Positions 22,650-30,310 of a stretch of DNA of 64,000 nucleotides are shown here, piece after piece (the stretch's first letter is position 1; every line of letters starts with the position of its first letter). Under the pieces are notes generated by a model. The model made no database searches. It was not told the origin of the DNA and was given only the letters and a program-made list of their open reading frames with translations. Origin of the DNA: Halobaculum limi (GTDB lineage Archaea > Halobacteriota > Halobacteria > Halobacteriales > Haloferacaceae); assembly GCF_029490015.1 (NCBI RefSeq), contig NZ_CP120468.1, positions 248,001 to 312,000 of the forward strand. Reading direction: 5' to 3'. A program made the position numbers and the translations under genes.

Positions 22650-25600
22650 TTATGTCGTGCGAACAAATCCTTGCTGAGGTTCATATATTTCACCGCGGGT
22701 GCGGAGTTTCTCCAGTTGCTGTTCGGCCTTTCCGGCGTCCATCCCGGCTTCGTCGGCACGTTCGAGGATCGCGTCGACAGGCGCACCGGGTTCGTCCTCG
22801 TACTCCTGGGCGATGGTCTCGATGAGGTCTTTGATGCCCTTGATGCGGTCGCGTTGGGTCTTCGACTGCCCGGTCTCGACCACGTCGGCGTCGAACTGCC
22901 CCGTCTCGGGGTCGACGCCGATGTCCTGCAGACACGAGCGAACGATCTCGATGACGCGCGTGGCGTCCTCCTCCTCGACGGTGTCGGAGAGACGGACACG
23001 GGCGCTCGCCTCCGAGAGACGGACGAGCGCCTCCAGTTTCCGGGCGGTGACGGGGACGGGTGCGTCCTCGTCAGCGCCCTTCGCCCGGAGGTCGACGTAG
23101 AAGTCGCGGATGGCCGCCCGCGCCTCGTCGGTCATCGTCGGGAAGCAGTTGCGCTTCGAGTAGGCGATGTACTTCCGGAGCAGTTCCGCGTCGATGACGG
23201 GTGCGACCTCTTGGGTTACCTCGTCGACCTGTTCTTGCGTGAAGTTCGAGGTCGACATCTGCTCTCGTTGGGTGTTCAGTTCACCCGCATAGTTCGTCGT
23301 CAGGATGTGGTCGGCCAGTTTCGCGTCGTGGTCGGGGTCGGGACTGTCGGTGACGGTGAAGATGAGGTCGAACCGCGAGATGAGCGCGGGTTCTAAGTCG
23401 ATCTGTTCGCCGATTGGTTCGTACTGGTCGAAGCGCCCGTACTTCGGGTTCGCGGCGCCGAGCAGCGAACACCGCGACTTCAGCGTGGCGTTGATCCCCG
23501 CCTTCGAGACGCTGATCTGCTGTTGTTCGAGCGCCTCGTGCATCGCAGAGCGGTCCTCGGAGTTGTGGACGACCATCCCGTTTGCGATGAAGTTGTGCGT
23601 TCCCTCGACAGTGAGGTCGTAGACATGTCCGTCTTCATCGGGGAAGACCTCATCAGTGGCCACAGACTCGACACGCTTGATCCTTCGACAGAGGACATCA
23701 CACCCAGTTAGGTCTGCCTGTCTGTTATCAGCAATGACGCCACCGTCACTCGCGGTTGGCGGAACCGAACGCGGGACGTATGCACAATCACCCTTAGTGA
23801 GTTTGGACGCTGCGCGCTCAACGCGCTCTCCGTCTTCTCGGATGAAGAACGGGTGATCCTCCGTGGAAGTGAGCTGGTCGCCATTCTCGAGCGTCACCTT
23901 CGTGAGCGACGATGGGGCTTCGTACTCGTGGACCGCAGTGACCGATCGCTGCACAATCTGTCCATCGTCAGTCATCGTCCAGGCGTCGAGGCCAACGTCG
24001 CGGATAGTCCGCCCGTTCGACAGTGGCTCGACAGATCCGTCTTCAGCCGCTTCCTTCGCGATTTCACCAATCCGTCGGATCTGACCGTCACCGAGGTGCA
24101 CGAGCGTATCGCCCGTTACACACCGCATCTTGTCCAACTCGTCGACCGCCGCGATGCCTTTGTCCGCGAGAACGAGCGCACCGGCTTCCAGTGTCCACTG
24201 CTGGCCGTCGCCGAAGTCGTCGCGAACCGCAGCGGCGGTGTTGTGAGTAACGAGGCCGTTTCCGGCGAAGTTGTGCGTCTCGGGGACCGTCAGGTCGAAC
24301 ACCTCCTGCTCGCCGACATCGGTCACGTCTGTGACGCGGTCCCATCGGAGATCGGCGTCGACGGCTTCCCGAACAGCGGATTCCGCCTCACCCAGATCCA
24401 CATTATCGAGGATCTGTCGTGCTCGTCCGCGGCCGGGGTTGTCACCGTGGGTAACGTTTGTGTGGTATGCGCCACCTGCGCCGTCAGTCGCGACGAGTGC
24501 CGACCCGACAGGGATCGTTTCCTCGCGACGGGTCGCGTCGCCTGTGATCTGGTCCAGTGCCGCGGCTTTCTCGTCGACCTCGAAGCCAATAGCGTCCGCG
24601 TACCGCTCAATGTTCGCGCCGTACAGTTCGACAAAGTGCTGGACGTGCTTCGACTCAATGGTGTGTCCGTTGTCGAGTTCGTACGTCCCGCGGCGGTCAC
24701 GCTCACGGCGGCGAGCGCGGATGTTGTACGTCTCCAGCATCAACTGGATCTGTTCGGCTAATCGCTCGCTGATCGTCGAGATGAGAACACTCGAACCGCC
24801 ATTCTCGCGGACCGACACTGCCCCGTCGGCGTCCATCAACCCGCGGAGGAACGCATCCGCGTGGGCCGCAGTAGTGAGTTCGGGTGCGAGTTCTAGGTCG
24901 GCTTTCGGCGTCTGCATCCCCGCGTTGGCAAACAGCCGTGCGATCGTTGCACTTCCGACTCTAATAGATGGGACGCGACCCTCCTGCCGCTCGATTTCGG
25001 GGCGTTTGTCGAACTTCGCCGCGAAGATATCACGCGCACGCTCCAACAGCGCCTCGTTTCCGTTGGAGATCCGGACCATTCCGCGGTTGCCACCGCGTCG
25101 ATCCAGCGAGATATCCCCATCTCCGAACACGAGCCCGAGGAGGTACATTAGGTCCTGGTCAAACGTCTCCGGGAGCGTGATGCTGTCCCCGTGCCGTATC
25201 ATCAGCCGGTCGAACGCAACATCTTCGCGGGTTAACTCGACTGAATCGAGAATTCGATCGAGTTTCGCGAGCGGGACGTGTCGATTGCGGAGAGAATCGT
25301 AGATAAAATCTTCCGAGAGGTCGAGTGCGGCCGCCGCGGCACGAAGGTGTCCAAAGCGATCACAAAGCGCGTTACGAAGCAGTTCCACGGACTCGTCGGC
25401 CAAATCCACCTTCTCAGTGGTGAGTTCGAGGAACGACCTGACGGAGACCTCGCTCCGGTCGAGATCACGGTACCTCGGGACGGCAACGTGCTGTCCCGGT
25501 TCGATGTCGGAGACGGCGACCCACTCCAGGCCGTTCGCCCCACACGTCAACACCGGCGTGTTCTCCGAGGCCGTGAGTGACTTGCCGTGAGCGGTTTCGA

Positions 25601-27413
25601 TCCGGCGGCACGGCTTCTCCGGCATCCGCCAGACGTGAGAGGACTCGCGGTTGACCATCGTTCCCGCGTCCCTGTCGAACGTCTGGAGCCCTACACGCTT
25701 CGTCGCACTCGTCTCTTCGGAGACGGGGATGGGGTGTTCCGTCGTTGCGAGGTCGCGGACCTCACGCAGGCCGTCTTCAGTGTGGATCAGCGTGTCGCCG
25801 GTGACACAGAGACCGGCACTCGACGAACCCTTGCCGGACGTATACACAGAACGCGGCGCGATGTTCCGGATGTACGAGAGCATCTGGGAGTTGTGGGAGA
25901 CGAGTCCGTTCGAGACGTAGCTGTGCGTCCCTTCGACTTCGAGGTCGTACACCCACTCCTCGGCAGGTTCGACGCGTTCGAGGGACTCGATAGCATCCCA
26001 CGCAACCACAGAGGCAGACGGCACAGCACGTGTCGATGCAGCACCACCATCGGTTGCAGCGGCGGCGGCCGCAGCGACCGGCGTCCCCACCGAGAGTTCG
26101 TCGGCACGAACCGCGTGAGGTCCACCAGCACCGCGAACGAACAGCGGGTGCGACGGCGTCACCTCTAGTTCCCGCCCGCTGTTCGTCCGGATACGGAGCA
26201 TTTCCTCGGGCGCCTCGCGCTTCCAGACTTTCGTTGCTTGCCGCGGTTCGATATCTCCGTTCGGTCTGAGCGACGGTACCGAGAAGTCGGCGTCGTCCCA
26301 CACCCCGTCGTCCACCGGCTTCGGGTCGTCAAGATTCGACTCGACCAACTCACGGATCGGCACGTCACGTCCGTCCGCGAGTGTCACCCGCGTATCTCCG
26401 TCGACGCACTTCCCCGTCCCGGGGTCCCCGATCAACAGCATATGCAAGTCGCCCCGAATCCGCGACCCGTCTGGGAGGTGCTTCGTGACCCCGGAGAACA
26501 ACTGGAGGATCATCGAGAGTTTCTCCTGGTCGTAGCCGTAGATAGAGGGCGCGACGGAGGCGACCATCTCCTCGTAGATGTCGTCGTGGGTGGACAGTTC
26601 GAGGATCTCCTGTTTGTCCTCGTCGGTGATGTCCATATCCTCGAACTCCTCGTCTTCGATGACGACCGACACCCCCTCCATATACGGGTCGAACACGGTC
26701 GTCTTCTCTTGGCCGGAGGTGACCTGCTCCATCTCCAGACGCCCGACGACGGTGACGTGGTCACCCGGCGTCACATTCCCGCAGACGTCGTCTTCGAGGT
26801 TCACGTCGATTGACTGTGGCGTCTCGCCGCCGCGGAGTCCCTCGGGCGACTCCTGCACCCGCAACTGCTGTGAGTCGATGAACTTCGACTCTTTGTTGTT
26901 GACGCGGAACGGCCCCTGCCGCTCACAGCCCTGACACTCGTGGGGTTCCTGGAAGCCAGAGTCGTTCTGCGGGATGTACGTCATCGTCCCGCAGCGCTGG
27001 CACTCGAAGGCGGCCTCAACGATCTTCGGGCGCACGTCGGTCGCCTTGCGGACGATGCCCTGCACCGCGACCATCGACCCGATGTGGTCGTCGCTGACGC
27101 GGATGCCGCGGATGTCGAGCGTGCTCTCGCGCGGGAGGTTGCGCAGGCGGACGTGCGCCTGCCCCAGCGAGATGTCGACTGGGAGGTCGTACGTGCGAAG
27201 CGCCTCCTCGGCGACGTCTTGCATCTGTCCGGGGCGGTTGAGATACCGCTCGGCCAGATCCGGGTCGTAGGTGTAGAGGTCGTCGTATTCGAGGTACAGC
27301 GAACGCTGTTCCTTCGGGTACTTCTGTGCGAGACGCGCGATGTCGTCCGCGTAGTAAGTCCGATAGAAACTGAGGAACTCGTCGACGTCCTGTCCCTCGG
27401 CGGCCTGACTCAT
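22650..27413 (-). CDS. mcm: MCM replicative DNA helicase containing three inteins
   Basis: A 1587-residue precursor of the archaeal MCM helicase, which unwinds DNA at the replication fork as a hexamer. Removing the inteins gives a 704-residue protein, normal for haloarchaea. The N-terminal domain has a zinc finger (Cys138, Cys141, Cys160, Cys163) and OB fold. The AAA+ core carries Walker A GDPGTGK-S (329 onward), the SSAGL segment and Walker B VDELDKMR. Further conserved parts are 'GAANPKYGRFD' (sensor 1 area) and 'LISRFDLIF' (arginine finger). A C-terminal winged helix ends the protein. All three inteins interrupt the AAA+ domain exactly at conserved ATPase motifs, so the enzyme must be inactive until spliced. 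Gene stands alone; ATG 27413 starts MSQAAEGQD. Confidence 0.97.
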   Translation of the reverse strand: MSQAAEGQDVDEFLSFYRTYYADDIARLAQKYPKEQRSLYLEYDDLYTYDPDLAERYLNRPGQMQDVAEEALRTYDLPVDISLGQAHVRLRNLPRESTLDIRGIRVSDDHIGSMVAVQGIVRKATDVRPKIVEAAFECQRCGTMTYIPQNDSGFQEPHECQGCERQGPFRVNNKESKFIDSQQLRVQESPEGLRGGETPQSIDVNLEDDVCGNVTPGDHVTVVGRLEMEQVTSGQEKTTVFDPYMEGVSVVIEDEEFEDMDITDEDKQEILELSTHDDIYEEMVASVAPSIYGYDQEKLSMILQLFSGVTKHLPDGSRIRGDLHMLLIGDPGTGKCVDGDTRVTLADGRDVPIRELVESNLDDPKPVDDGVWDDADFSVPSLRPNGDIEPRQATKVWKREAPEEMLRIRTNSGRELEVTPSHPLFVRGAGGPHAVRADELSVGTPVAAAAAAATDGGAASTRAVPSASVVAWDAIESLERVEPAEEWVYDLEVEGTHSYVSNGLVSHNSQMLSYIRNIAPRSVYTSGKGSSSAGLCVTGDTLIHTEDGLREVRDLATTEHPIPVSEETSATKRVGLQTFDRDAGTMVNRESSHVWRMPEKPCRRIETAHGKSLTASENTPVLTCGANGLEWVAVSDIEPGQHVAVPRYRDLDRSEVSVRSFLELTTEKVDLADESVELLRNALCDRFGHLRAAAAALDLSEDFIYDSLRNRHVPLAKLDRILDSVELTREDVAFDRLMIRHGDSITLPETFDQDLMYLLGLVFGDGDISLDRRGGNRGMVRISNGNEALLERARDIFAAKFDKRPEIERQEGRVPSIRVGSATIARLFANAGMQTPKADLELAPELTTAAHADAFLRGLMDADGAVSVRENGGSSVLISTISERLAEQIQLMLETYNIRARRRERDRRGTYELDNGHTIESKHVQHFVELYGANIERYADAIGFEVDEKAAALDQITGDATRREETIPVGSALVATDGAGGAYHTNVTHGDNPGRGRARQILDNVDLGEAESAVREAVDADLRWDRVTDVTDVGEQEVFDLTVPETHNFAGNGLVTHNTAAAVRDDFGDGQQWTLEAGALVLADKGIAAVDELDKMRCVTGDTLVHLGDGQIRRIGEIAKEAAEDGSVEPLSNGRTIRDVGLDAWTMTDDGQIVQRSVTAVHEYEAPSSLTKVTLENGDQLTSTEDHPFFIREDGERVERAASKLTKGDCAYVPRSVPPTASDGGVIADNRQADLTGCDVLCRRIKRVESVATDEVFPDEDGHVYDLTVEGTHNFIANGMVVHNSEDRSAMHEALEQQQISVSKAGINATLKSRCSLLGAANPKYGRFDQYEPIGEQIDLEPALISRFDLIFTVTDSPDPDHDAKLADHILTTNYAGELNTQREQMSTSNFTQEQVDEVTQEVAPVIDAELLRKYIAYSKRNCFPTMTDEARAAIRDFYVDLRAKGADEDAPVPVTARKLEALVRLSEASARVRLSDTVEEEDATRVIEIVRSCLQDIGVDPETGQFDADVVETGQSKTQRDRIKGIKDLIETIAQEYEDEPGAPVDAILERADEAGMDAGKAEQQLEKLRTRGEIYEPQQGFVRTT
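23562..24122 (-). other. Intein 3 of MCM (mini-intein after Walker B)
   Basis: Precursor residues 1098-1284 (187 aa), inserted directly after DELDKMR and before Ser1285. It begins CVTGDTLVHLGDGQ (Cys1098), contains block B STEDHPFF (1183-1190), and ends 'VYDLTVEGTHNFIANGMVVHN' with Asn1284. No LAGLIDADG helices are present, so it is a splicing-only mini-intein. Its first seven residues equal those of intein 2, and the C-terminal blocks of both are very similar. Confidence 0.93.
24240..25808 (-). other. Intein 2 of MCM with LAGLIDADG homing endonuclease
   Basis: Precursor residues 536-1058 (523 aa), inserted after GSSSAGL and before the extein Thr1059. It starts CVTGDTLIHTEDG with Cys536. A block-B-like region is near 'SLTASENTPVLT', and it ends 'VFDLTVPETHNFAGNGLVTHN'. 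Two LAGLIDADG-like helices, LLGLVFGDGDI (758-768) and LRGLMDADGAV (856-866), with acidic catalytic residues present, indicate an endonuclease domain that could be active. This is the only full-length intein of the three. Confidence 0.94.
25890..26408 (-). other. Intein 1 of MCM (mini-intein in Walker A)
   Basis: Precursor residues 336-508 (173 aa). It begins with CVDGDTRVTLADG (block A, nucleophile Cys336), has block B TPSHPLF (419-425) and ends with block F 'EWVYDLEVEGTHSYVSNG' and block G VSHN (Asn508), followed by Ser509 as the +1 nucleophile. It splits GDPGTGK from S of the ATP-binding P-loop. It has no LAGLIDADG motifs; the 60-75 residue gap between splicing halves is a low-complexity Ala-rich linker, so the homing endonuclease has been lost. 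Confidence 0.93.
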
Positions 27414-27500: not shown

Positions 27501-28217
27501 CTACGCCGCCACCGCGCTCCCGAAGTGGCGACGCCGTGCCTCCCGGGTGCCGACGGCGAGGAGGACACCCCCGACGAGCGCCAGCAGGCCGGCTTCGGCG
27601 GTCGGCGCAACGCCGCCGATGACCCCCCACCCTGCCGCGACGCCGCCGACGAACCCCATCTGCACGACGAGCACCGCGACGAGGGCGTACCGACGGCCGG
27701 TGTCGGCGTACAGCGACCCGACGGCGGCCGTCTCGGCGGCAGCGTGCCCGGCGACGACGATGGCGCCCGCCAGTCCGAGTGCCGCGTCGGCGGCGTAGAC
27801 GGTGGCGAGGACGACGCCTTCGAGGCCACGGTGGAGCGTCACGGCCCCCAGTGCGGCGTCCGCACAGCTACCGCAGTCGGTGATCCCAACACCGCGGGCG
27901 AGATAACTGACGCTGACACCGACCGTGAGGCCAACGAGGGCCACTGCCGTCGCCCGCGTGACGGCCAACGCCAGCGCTGCGGCGCCGAGCGCGAACACGA
28001 GCATCGGGAGCGCTGCCCGCCCCACGGCCCACGGAACCCGGCCGTAAGCGATCAAGACAACCCCGCCGCCGAGTAGACTGACGAGGACGACGCCCGCGAC
28101 GACGACTAGGAGAGAGAGACCCGTCGCGTCGGCGGGTACGCCGTGGGCGGACGCGGGTGTCGACAGAAGAGTGACACCGAACGCAGCGACGGCCGCGCGT
28201 CGGATGATCGATCTCAT
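27501..28217 (-). CDS. ZIP-like metal transporter family membrane protein with N-terminal signal
   Basis: A 238-residue protein. Residues 1-24 form a signal peptide or first helix ending ASAHG, followed by about seven hydrophobic segments. Two motifs match the metal site of ZIP transporters: HRGLEG (129-134), equivalent to HNxxEG of ZIP helix 4, and HAAAE (158-162), equivalent to HExxxE/HxxxE of helix 5. Their 29-residue spacing is that of ZIP proteins. A CGSC pair (115-118) lies just before. The ATG at 28217 overlaps the ferredoxin stop (ATGA), so it is third in the operon methanethiol oxidase-ferredoxin-ZIP-like. The ZIP call rests on motifs only; metal and direction are unknown. Confidence 0.65.
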   Translation of the reverse strand: MRSIIRRAAVAAFGVTLLSTPASAHGVPADATGLSLLVVVAGVVLVSLLGGGVVLIAYGRVPWAVGRAALPMLVFALGAAALALAVTRATAVALVGLTVGVSVSYLARGVGITDCGSCADAALGAVTLHRGLEGVVLATVYAADAALGLAGAIVVAGHAAAETAAVGSLYADTGRRYALVAVLVVQMGFVGGVAAGWGVIGGVAPTAEAGLLALVGGVLLAVGTREARRRHFGSAVAA

Positions 28218-28531
28218 TTCCACGGGTTCGGCACGAGGTCGGCCTGTATCTCCGCGCCCACTTCGATTCGGCAATCGGAGCGCGGTTCGGCCACACACAG
28301 CAGGACGTACCCGTCCCGTCGATGGCGGGGCTTCAACCCTCGTGGGCGGTCGATATGGACGAGGTCACCCTCCAGCAGGCGGCCGGTGCAGGTGGCGCAG
28401 GCCCCGTACAGACACCCGTAGGGGACGCCGAGGCCCGCACGCTCGGCCGCGTCGATGACCGTCTCGGTCTCCCGAACCTCGACGGTCTCCTCCCGGCCGT
28501 CACGCCACTCCAGGGTGATCTCGTGGGGCAT
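28214..28531 (-). CDS. 2Fe-2S ferredoxin (plant/[halo]bacterial type)
   Basis: A 105-residue [2Fe-2S] ferredoxin. The cluster motif is GCLYGACATC (Cys40, Cys45, Cys48) with the fourth Cys in 'VLLCVAEP' near residue 79, the standard CX4CX2C...C pattern. It lies 6 nt after the methanethiol-oxidase-like gene and overlaps the ZIP-like gene. It is shorter than the abundant haloarchaeal ferredoxin and lacks its inserted acidic domain, so it is more likely a dedicated electron carrier for this operon. Confidence 0.92.
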   Translation of the reverse strand: MPHEITLEWRDGREETVEVRETETVIDAAERAGLGVPYGCLYGACATCTGRLLEGDLVHIDRPRGLKPRHRRDGYVLLCVAEPRSDCRIEVGAEIQADLVPNPWK

Positions 28532-28537
28532 CGGCGA

Positions 28538-29941
28538 CTACTGCCAGACGTCGCTCGTACAGTCGCCGCCGGGCCAGCGAATCTCGTGGGCGCGGGCCGG
28601 ACCGCCGGGGGCGTCGCCGAAGTCGACGACGAACTCCTCGTCGAGTTCCATCCGTCCCTCCTCGGGGTAGACGTCCGCCTTCAGCATCAGCGATCCCTCC
28701 TCGCCCATCTCGGGGTAGAACTGGTTGTCCCACGTGGAGAACAGGGAGGTGGTCCAGTAGAGGCGGCGCCCGTCGCGCGAAAGCTGGAGCATCTGTGGGG
28801 CGCCACGGATGTCGTGATCACCGACCGTCTGTCGGTCGCCGAAGTTGCCGCCGGCCCACACTTGGTCTACTAGCCGGGGGTTCCCCGTGTCGCTGACGTC
28901 GTACATCCGCACGTCGCCGTGGAGCCAGTTCGAGAAGAACAGATACTGGTCGTCGAGCGAGAGGAGGAGGTCCGTCACGAGGCCGGGAACCGGCATATCC
29001 CAGTCGGGATGCTCGCGGTCCTCGATGTCGATGACTTTCTCCCAGTCCCAGTTGCCGTCGGCGTCCTCCCAGAAGCGGAGGATGTTCGAGGAGAGCGCGG
29101 CGCCGACGTACCCCTCCGTCTCCTCGGGGTTGTGGGGCATCCGGACTTCCAGCGGGATCAGCCCCTCCTCACCGAAGGTGAGAGACTGGCGGTGTTCTTT
29201 GGTCTCCCAGTCCCAGATGTGGATGCTGTCACCGTACTTCCCGGCTTCGACGTCTTCCATATCGAAGCCCGGGTAGTACGTCTCGGGGGCGGCCCACTCG
29301 CTGGAGATCATCACTCCGTGACGGGGCTGATACCAGTAGTCGTAGTTCATCTCCATCGCGCCGCTGTCGGCCTCCCAGTGGCCGTCGATGGAGAAGTCGT
29401 CCTGGTCGAGTTGGAGGAAGCCACCGGGGAGTTCGCCGTCGGCGTTGCCGAGCATACTGATGACGATCTTCCCTTCGGGAACGCAGTGGACCGTGTGTGG
29501 CGCCGAGAGGTCGTGTTCGAACACCTCCTCGGGCTCGATCACGTGCTCGATCTCCGGATTGCGCGGGTCGGCGGCGTCGATGATGTGGATCCGGGAGGAG
29601 CGTTGCCCCGGGACGATCAGGTGGTCTCGGGTGAGTCCCTCGGCGTGACACGAGGACGAACAGGTGTTCCAGCCGAAGTGGTGGAGTTCGTCACCCTTGT
29701 TCGGCATCTCGACGGTGTCGATCAACTCCGCGTAGGTGTCGGAGTCGGGGTCGACGTCCACGACGCCGACGAAGTCGGGGCCGTCCACGTCCATCCCGAC
29801 TCGGAGTGACATCACGAAGGCGGTCTTCTCGCGTTCGGATTCGGTGCGCATCGCCGCCGGTGTCGGATATCCCGGCCCCTCGACCTCGTGGTGCTCGTGG
29901 CCGTGTGCGTCGGCCGTATGATCGTGGTCGTCAGTACTCAT
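28538..29941 (-). CDS. Selenium-binding protein family (SBP56), probable methanethiol oxidase
   Basis: A 467-residue SBP56-family beta-propeller. Members in bacteria (MtoX) and human SELENBP1 oxidise methanethiol to formaldehyde, H2O2 and sulfide with a copper centre. Visible signatures are HHFGWN (87-92), the CSSSCH motif (94-99), 'SAPHTVHCVPEGKIVISMLG', 'VRMPHNPE' and 'LFFSNWLHGDVRMYD'. The N-terminus is His-rich (HDHTADAHGHEHHE), possibly metal-binding. Unlike bacterial MtoX it shows no signal peptide. First gene of the operon with ferredoxin and a ZIP-like protein; a TATA box lies upstream. Confidence 0.92.
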   Translation of the reverse strand: MSTDDHDHTADAHGHEHHEVEGPGYPTPAAMRTESEREKTAFVMSLRVGMDVDGPDFVGVVDVDPDSDTYAELIDTVEMPNKGDELHHFGWNTCSSSCHAEGLTRDHLIVPGQRSSRIHIIDAADPRNPEIEHVIEPEEVFEHDLSAPHTVHCVPEGKIVISMLGNADGELPGGFLQLDQDDFSIDGHWEADSGAMEMNYDYWYQPRHGVMISSEWAAPETYYPGFDMEDVEAGKYGDSIHIWDWETKEHRQSLTFGEEGLIPLEVRMPHNPEETEGYVGAALSSNILRFWEDADGNWDWEKVIDIEDREHPDWDMPVPGLVTDLLLSLDDQYLFFSNWLHGDVRMYDVSDTGNPRLVDQVWAGGNFGDRQTVGDHDIRGAPQMLQLSRDGRRLYWTTSLFSTWDNQFYPEMGEEGSLMLKADVYPEEGRMELDEEFVVDFGDAPGGPARAHEIRWPGGDCTSDVWQ

Positions 29942-30310
29942 TGGCCTACCGACACGAACGCGTCGATTGTTAATAATTATCTAGGTGGTTTATCGTCGGC
30001 CTGTTCCGAGTCGGAACGGTGGAAGCGAGTACCCATTTGAGTACTGCCAAGGGGGACTACTGGTTCGTGTGTGGCAGTGCAGATACGCCACGGTGTGTCC
30101 CCCCAACCGAGTTCATACTGATCGGTCCGCCGCTGTGGTGACTGCCAAGCACGCCGCTTCGGAGGGGAACTGAACGCTGTCACTCACTTCTCAACGAGAG
30201 GCCCGGAAGGCGTACTATCCCGGACCAGCCCGGAGGGCCGGCGGTTTGCTGAATCGATGGAGGAAATGTGTGAAGCGTTTCGAGGTGTGCACAAGAATTA
30301 AAATTGAGAG
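29942..30310. other. Spacer between the SBP56 operon and the PD-(D/E)XK-like gene
   Basis: About 370 bases with no convincing gene. Besides the promoter above, there is a possible hairpin with stem ACTGCCA/TGGCAGT (around 30043-30079), and ACTGCCA recurs near 30141. The end next to the nuclease-like gene is A/T-rich (around 30290-30310) and could terminate its transcript. No copy of the tRNA-Pro 3' end is present here. Confidence 0.4.
29971..29980 (-). promoter_or_regulatory. TATA box of the SBP56-ferredoxin-ZIP operon
   Basis: An A/T-only decamer (minus strand ATAATTATTA) lies 30-39 nt upstream of the ATG at 29941, in otherwise GC-rich DNA. Position and sequence fit a haloarchaeal core promoter. 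Confidence 0.55.

Follow-up and report, generated by a model that had tools for sequence, protein, structure and literature searches.

A three-gene operon of Halobaculum limi encodes an SBP56-family enzyme, a 2Fe-2S ferredoxin and a membrane protein, here named MEM, whose predicted fold is that of a ZIP metal transporter, and relatives of MEM recur in haloarchaea beside two unrelated families of copper enzyme, SBP56 and copper amine oxidase (CuAO). The window analysed is a 64,000-nucleotide stretch of contig NZ_CP120468.1, and the features referred to below, in window coordinates, are as follows:

29942 to 30060, minus strand: region upstream of the SBP56 gene with an AT-rich stretch (GATAATTATTAACAA), putative promoter
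28538 to 29941, minus strand: SBP56 / methanethiol-oxidase-like enzyme, 467 aa (Pfam SBP56)
28532 to 28537, minus strand: 6-nt gap between the SBP56 and ferredoxin genes
28214 to 28531, minus strand: plant-type 2Fe-2S ferredoxin, 105 aa (Fer2)
28214 to 28217, minus strand: ATGA stop/start overlap of the ferredoxin and MEM genes
27501 to 28217, minus strand: MEM, ZIP-like membrane protein, 238 aa (AlphaFold model, alignment)
27816 to 27833, minus strand: HRGLEG in TM4 of MEM; H129 and E133 correspond to BbZIP H177 and E181 (M1), and R130 replaces N178 (M2)
27732 to 27746, minus strand: HAAAE in TM5 of MEM; H158 and E162 correspond to BbZIP Q207 and E211 (M1), and A159 replaces D208 (M2)

The three tightly coupled genes described in an earlier note on this DNA are all present, with the 6-nt gap and the ATGA overlap; the overlap suggests coupled translation of ferredoxin and MEM, and the AT-rich stretch is a possible promoter of the operon. 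Since the operon is flanked downstream by an MCM helicase gene and upstream by a PD-(D/E)XK nuclease (PDDEXK_5) and a CitMHS transporter, the unit consists of these three genes only. The MCM replicative helicase gene itself (22650-27413, minus strand, 1587 aa) is intein-interrupted, with three Intein_splicing stretches and one LAGLIDADG domain.

The enzyme scores 644.6 bits (E 1e-193) against Pfam SBP56 (PF05694), above the gathering score of 34 bits, and aligns over its full length with 2ECE from Sulfolobus tokodaii. Its copper-site residues, found by motif, are H87, H88, H149, H152 and H452, together with D201 and E265. It has been reported that the His pairs and acidic residues of human SELENBP1 matter by mutagenesis, and that the activity of the human and worm SBP56 enzymes is restored by Cu only (PMC10362175); equivalents of SELENBP1 H73, H74, H137, H140, D189 and E252, matched by motif, are present in the window protein. 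The Pfam score and the copper-site residues thus agree with the SBP56 assignment made earlier. Bacterial MtoX contains Cu and is periplasmic (PMC5739008), whereas no signal peptide was found in the window SBP56, the hydropathy maximum over its first 45 residues being -0.67, which bears out the contrast with MtoX that had been drawn before. In common with bacterial MtoX and human SELENBP1, the window enzyme has a full-length Pfam SBP56 domain and the copper-site motifs (His-His, HxxHC and the C-terminal His); unlike MtoX, it lacks a signal peptide, scores low against the NCBIfam MtoX equivalog model (130 bits, below the cut-off of 650) and has a ferredoxin neighbour in place of SCO1/SenC and MauG. 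The His-rich N-terminus pointed out in the earlier note is real but not special to this module; it was rejected as a mark of MEM-linked SBP56, as it occurs generally in haloarchaeal SBP56 proteins with or without MEM.

No Pfam or NCBIfam model, Pfam Zip (PF02535) included, matches MEM, and searching the PDB sequences directly with its profile gave nothing meaningful. Its AlphaFold model, built from a 36-sequence alignment, has a pLDDT of 86, and in a Foldseek search of the PDB ranks 1-8 are all BbZIP, with probability 1.00 for the best three; the TM-scores are modest (best 0.45), and E 0.001 was reached by none. The earlier suggestion of a ZIP-like protein, tested here through the predicted structure, is therefore borne out by a fold related to BbZIP. 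In hhalign, the MEM profile matches genuine haloarchaeal ZIPs at 91.8% (E 7.6e-7) in an alignment that spans TM4-TM7 and ends before TM8, and a ZIP-free MEM profile pulls out genuine ZIPs among weak whole-genome matches. The predicted topology is a signal-peptide-like N-terminal helix followed by seven TM helices, and therefore the eighth ZIP helix, TM8, would be missing.

HRGLEG starts at MEM residue 129 and HAAAE at residue 158, which confirms both the motifs and the 29-residue spacing noted before; the corresponding motifs of the haloarchaeal ZIP L106 (HNFIDG...HEIPQE) are equally far apart. L106 itself had come up as a MEM-like match, was recognised as a true ZIP and was excluded before alignment. 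With the BbZIP ligand positions used for mapping (PMC9873690), the M1 positions H129, E133, H158 and E162 are invariant in the 36-sequence alignment, while the M2 ligands are gone, N178 being replaced by Arg or Gln and D208 by Ala or other residues. The metal site claimed earlier is thus half conserved, with M1 kept and M2 lost. For BbZIP, the authentic transport site has been identified as M1, whereas disruption of M2 lowers zinc transport only modestly (PMC11549095). A His directly after the predicted signal peptide of MEM is nearly invariant, and is invariant in the 36-row alignment. On the strength of the model and the alignment, MEM is a divergent ZIP that has kept M1 and lost M2 and the last helix; because TM8 and M2 are missing, its transport may be altered or lost. 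It shares with the ZIP (Zrt/Irt-like, SLC39) transporters, including BbZIP and haloarchaeal ZupT/GufA, the fold, the TM4/TM5 motif positions and the four M1 ligand positions, but differs from them in having no Pfam Zip match, no M2 ligands and no TM8, and in having a predicted signal peptide followed by the nearly invariant His. With the bacterial copper importers CopD/YcnJ and CcoA, MEM would share the proposed role of bringing copper to the cytosol; by annotation those proteins belong to other families (CopC-CopD and MFS), and the convincing fold matches of MEM are to ZIPs only.

A search of 391 haloarchaeal genomes with the MEM profile gave 51 matches of at least 500 bp in 43 genomes, 36 of them adjoining SBP56; a search of genome contigs with the single MEM sequence had found only three loci. 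After more genomes were added, 66 haloarchaeal MEM loci were classed. SBP56 lies within 426 bp in 46 of the 66, on the same strand in all 46 and with MEM downstream in 45; this linkage is far beyond chance, and the gene order is not unique to one genome. Another 12 loci belong to clusters of CuAO, P-II and an ammonium transporter (Amt), and eight have neither SBP56 nor a CuAO cluster. Outside Halobacteria, a search of the phylum in all six frames turned up no MEM except one weak partial match, and there was no match in the plasmid collection. MEM is not obligatory, because most SBP56-bearing genomes (100 of 136, about three quarters) and most CuAO loci are without a linked MEM.

Haloterrigena sp. 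H1 (G454) carries a window-type SBP56-ferredoxin-MEM unit and, in addition, an SBP56-MEM unit that has no ferredoxin; these two different versions suggest transfer as a unit. In genus g46, one genome (G432) keeps MEM, SBP56 and ferredoxin, with a helicase gene on one side and a PHA-type cluster on the other, its MEM having E162D and no N-terminal His; the same place in G058 and G167 is without SBP56 and ferredoxin and holds a MEM remnant that lacks the H129 and E133 residues. This loss, one event only, would fit with MEM serving SBP56. Loci L153 and L154 were considered as intermediates and rejected as decayed copies.

The contexts of the orphan MEM genes (MATE, MoeA, DUF7405) reveal no common partner. 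Four loci of genus g69 (L101, L104, L179, L180) form a MEM subclade that has HQxxEG where other MEMs have HRxxEG, and in which a conserved MATE-family gene always lies within a few kb and neither SBP56 nor copper amine oxidase is nearby. At L107:4721-8170 and L108:2530-8656, the orphan MEM adjoins a membrane protein of about 430 aa with a signal peptide, no Pfam match and the N-terminus ...SAHGG; a DUF7405/Dyp-like protein is near in both, and at L108 there is in addition a DUF7350/iron-transport protein in the vicinity.

The second partner of MEM, CuAO, is found in three separate parts of the MEM tree: with the second copy of Haloplanus, with a pair in G334, and in a different family with G422 (L181). 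Well-supported branches require at least two origins, so that the association arose in at least two, probably three, lineages. Genome G334 has no SBP56 and three MEM copies, with a CuAO no further than about 4 kb from each; one of the 12 CuAO-cluster loci, L177, ends at a contig end, and only P-II and Amt are visible there. The other CuAO loci checked have neither MEM nor P-II/Amt. The MEM-linked CuAOs have no signal peptide and keep the NYDY cofactor motif, and since SBP56 and the linked CuAOs are both copper enzymes without signal peptides, a cytosolic copper enzyme is predicted to be common to both kinds of MEM partner. A copper link had already been guessed at for the window operon; the second copper-enzyme partner adds evidence for it, with copper still a presumed cargo of MEM. 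A recurrent cluster of CuAO, ammonium transporter, P-II and MEM is seen at L064, L066-L070, L072, L176 and L181, with a TrmB-type regulator adjoining in several, and suggests use of amine nitrogen coupled to ammonium handling. Because these clusters also carry Amt and P-II, copper is not the sole possible link between MEM and CuAO.

The ferredoxin matches Fer2 with E 2e-17 and scores 72 bits against TIGR02008, below the cut-off of 81.15 bits. Its cluster cysteines are C40, C45, C48 and C79 (Cx4CxxC...C pattern), of which the first three are kept in 63/63 SBP56-linked ferredoxins and C79 in 62/63. In a phylogeny built from 79 SBP56 sequences, whose loci include the 30 best-scoring SBP56 matches and are not a random sample, a ferredoxin lies beside SBP56 in 62 of the 79, always on the same strand (62/62) and downstream in 61/62. 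Its presence was scored by a frame-by-frame profile search, as the gene caller had merged overlapping frames; this search overturned the impression that the ferredoxin is absent in many loci and left one loss, within a 17-sequence SBP56 clade whose members all carry MEM. All 34 of the SBP56 loci without MEM have the ferredoxin, and 17 of the 79 have MEM without ferredoxin, while MEM itself was gained or lost about eight times on the same tree. Since 62 of 79 loci carry the ferredoxin with one loss, it is, on this phylogenetic evidence, the older and more constant partner of SBP56, and MEM is optional. The gene order recurs, but the idea of a self-contained module is not supported in the sense of a fixed set, since ferredoxin and MEM can be separated, as the 34 loci with ferredoxin only and the 17 with MEM only indicate. 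In one Haloplanus genome, a broken second SBP56-ferredoxin pair (L178:3044-4929) lies next to an intact SBP56-ferredoxin-MEM unit.

The explanation preferred here, to which we give about even credence, is that MEM imports copper for the neighbouring enzyme, that the ferredoxin is the redox partner of SBP56, and that SBP56 oxidises methanethiol or a related thiol. In the cytosolic SBP56, the oxidation of methanethiol, or of a small thiol related to it, would take place at the copper site; the ferredoxin would be a dedicated partner, which may either accept electrons from thiol oxidation or keep the copper reduced. MEM would act as a ZIP-superfamily carrier with the M1 site only (two His and two Glu) and would move copper inward across the membrane, and this copper would go to the cytosolic copper enzyme encoded alongside, SBP56 in most loci and CuAO in others. 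The analysis shows the operon layout, the family assignments, the ZIP fold, the conserved M1 site and the recurring linkage with two unrelated families of copper enzyme; methanethiol as the substrate, copper as the cargo, its inward movement and electron transfer by way of the ferredoxin are proposals. The modest TM-scores, the missing TM8 and M2, the eight MEM loci with neither partner, the SBP56 and CuAO loci that do without MEM, the Amt and P-II genes of the CuAO clusters and the altered MEM of G432 speak against this explanation.

Other readings of MEM were weighed against copper import. Amine oxidases release hydrogen peroxide and an aldehyde, and because these are products of methanethiol oxidase as well as of copper amine oxidase, detoxification, not copper, could be the need shared by the partners, with MEM importing manganese or iron for hydrogen peroxide defence. 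The products of SELENBP1 do include H2O2 and formaldehyde (PMC10362175), and a DUF7405 protein weakly similar to Dyp peroxidases adjoins the orphan MEMs L107 and L108 or lies close to them. However, neither catalase nor superoxide dismutase is among the recurring neighbours examined, and copper is the direct cofactor of both partner enzymes; we regard the peroxide-defence role as unlikely. An M1 site of His and Glu, as in MEM, is the usual ligand set of Zn/Fe/Mn carriers, and together with the ZIP fold it would suit an ordinary broad-range divalent ZIP, for zinc and other metals, merely sitting in these operons; this is rather unlikely, since separate bona fide ZIPs occur in 20/20 genomes of the relatives, and MEM lacks the M2 of those ZIPs and has copper enzymes of two kinds as its linked partners.

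The replacement of an M2 ligand by Arg or Gln, the missing TM8 and the nearly invariant His with which the mature protein is predicted to begin might instead describe a protein that no longer transports and serves as a membrane anchor, a sensor or a copper-handing protein derived from a ZIP; we consider this improbable, since none of the four M1 ligands varies among the 36 aligned sequences, as expected for a working transport site. Supply of iron by MEM for the 2Fe-2S cluster of the ferredoxin, suggested by the adjacent, translationally coupled genes of the window, is contradicted by the distribution of genes across loci, with 17 SBP56-MEM loci without ferredoxin, 34 ferredoxin loci without MEM, and CuAO-linked MEM loci without a ferredoxin of their own, and it was rejected as extremely improbable. 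The linkage is clustered on the trees, as chance or shared ancestry of gene order with no functional link would have it, but MEM pairs at 25-35% identity stay linked while flanking genes change, G454 has two different versions of the unit, and MEM was gained or lost about eight times on the SBP56 tree, which leaves very little room for such an account.

The nearest known counterpart is the bacterial mtoX operon, in which mtoX is found with SCO1/senC and mauG in Hyphomicrobium and Ruegeria (PMC5739008). The haloarchaeal operon appears to follow the same logic, with a putatively thiol-oxidising SBP56, a presumed copper supply and a redox protein; it differs in having a ZIP-like protein and a 2Fe-2S ferredoxin, neither of them related to SCO1 or MauG, and an SBP56 predicted to be cytosolic, not periplasmic. 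SCO1/SenC and MauG are absent next to the window operon, where the neighbours are MCM, PDDEXK_5 and CitMHS. By analogy, the operon may correspond, in the cytosol, to the methanethiol-oxidase operon of bacteria, unrelated proteins having taken over the roles of copper supply and redox partner. A literature search for haloarchaea with selenium-binding protein or with copper amine oxidase found no paper, and the near-universal ferredoxin partner of haloarchaeal SBP56 was not found described in the literature searched.

For the biology of the family, copper uptake in archaea is an old gap. A 2008 survey of copper importers found none in archaea (PMC2147054), and a 2022 survey of Haloferax mediterranei gave only CopD and non-specific ZupT-type candidates for copper uptake (PMC9240420). 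We propose tentatively, at somewhat less than an even chance, that MEM is the founder of an archaeal copper-import family, a seven-helix, single-M1 derivative of ZIP that would load cytosolic SBP56 and CuAO, and that haloarchaeal SBP56 would be wired to its own ferredoxin and would not be a simple oxidase. MEM thus gives a concrete and testable candidate gene for a copper importer, tied to two unrelated copper enzymes.
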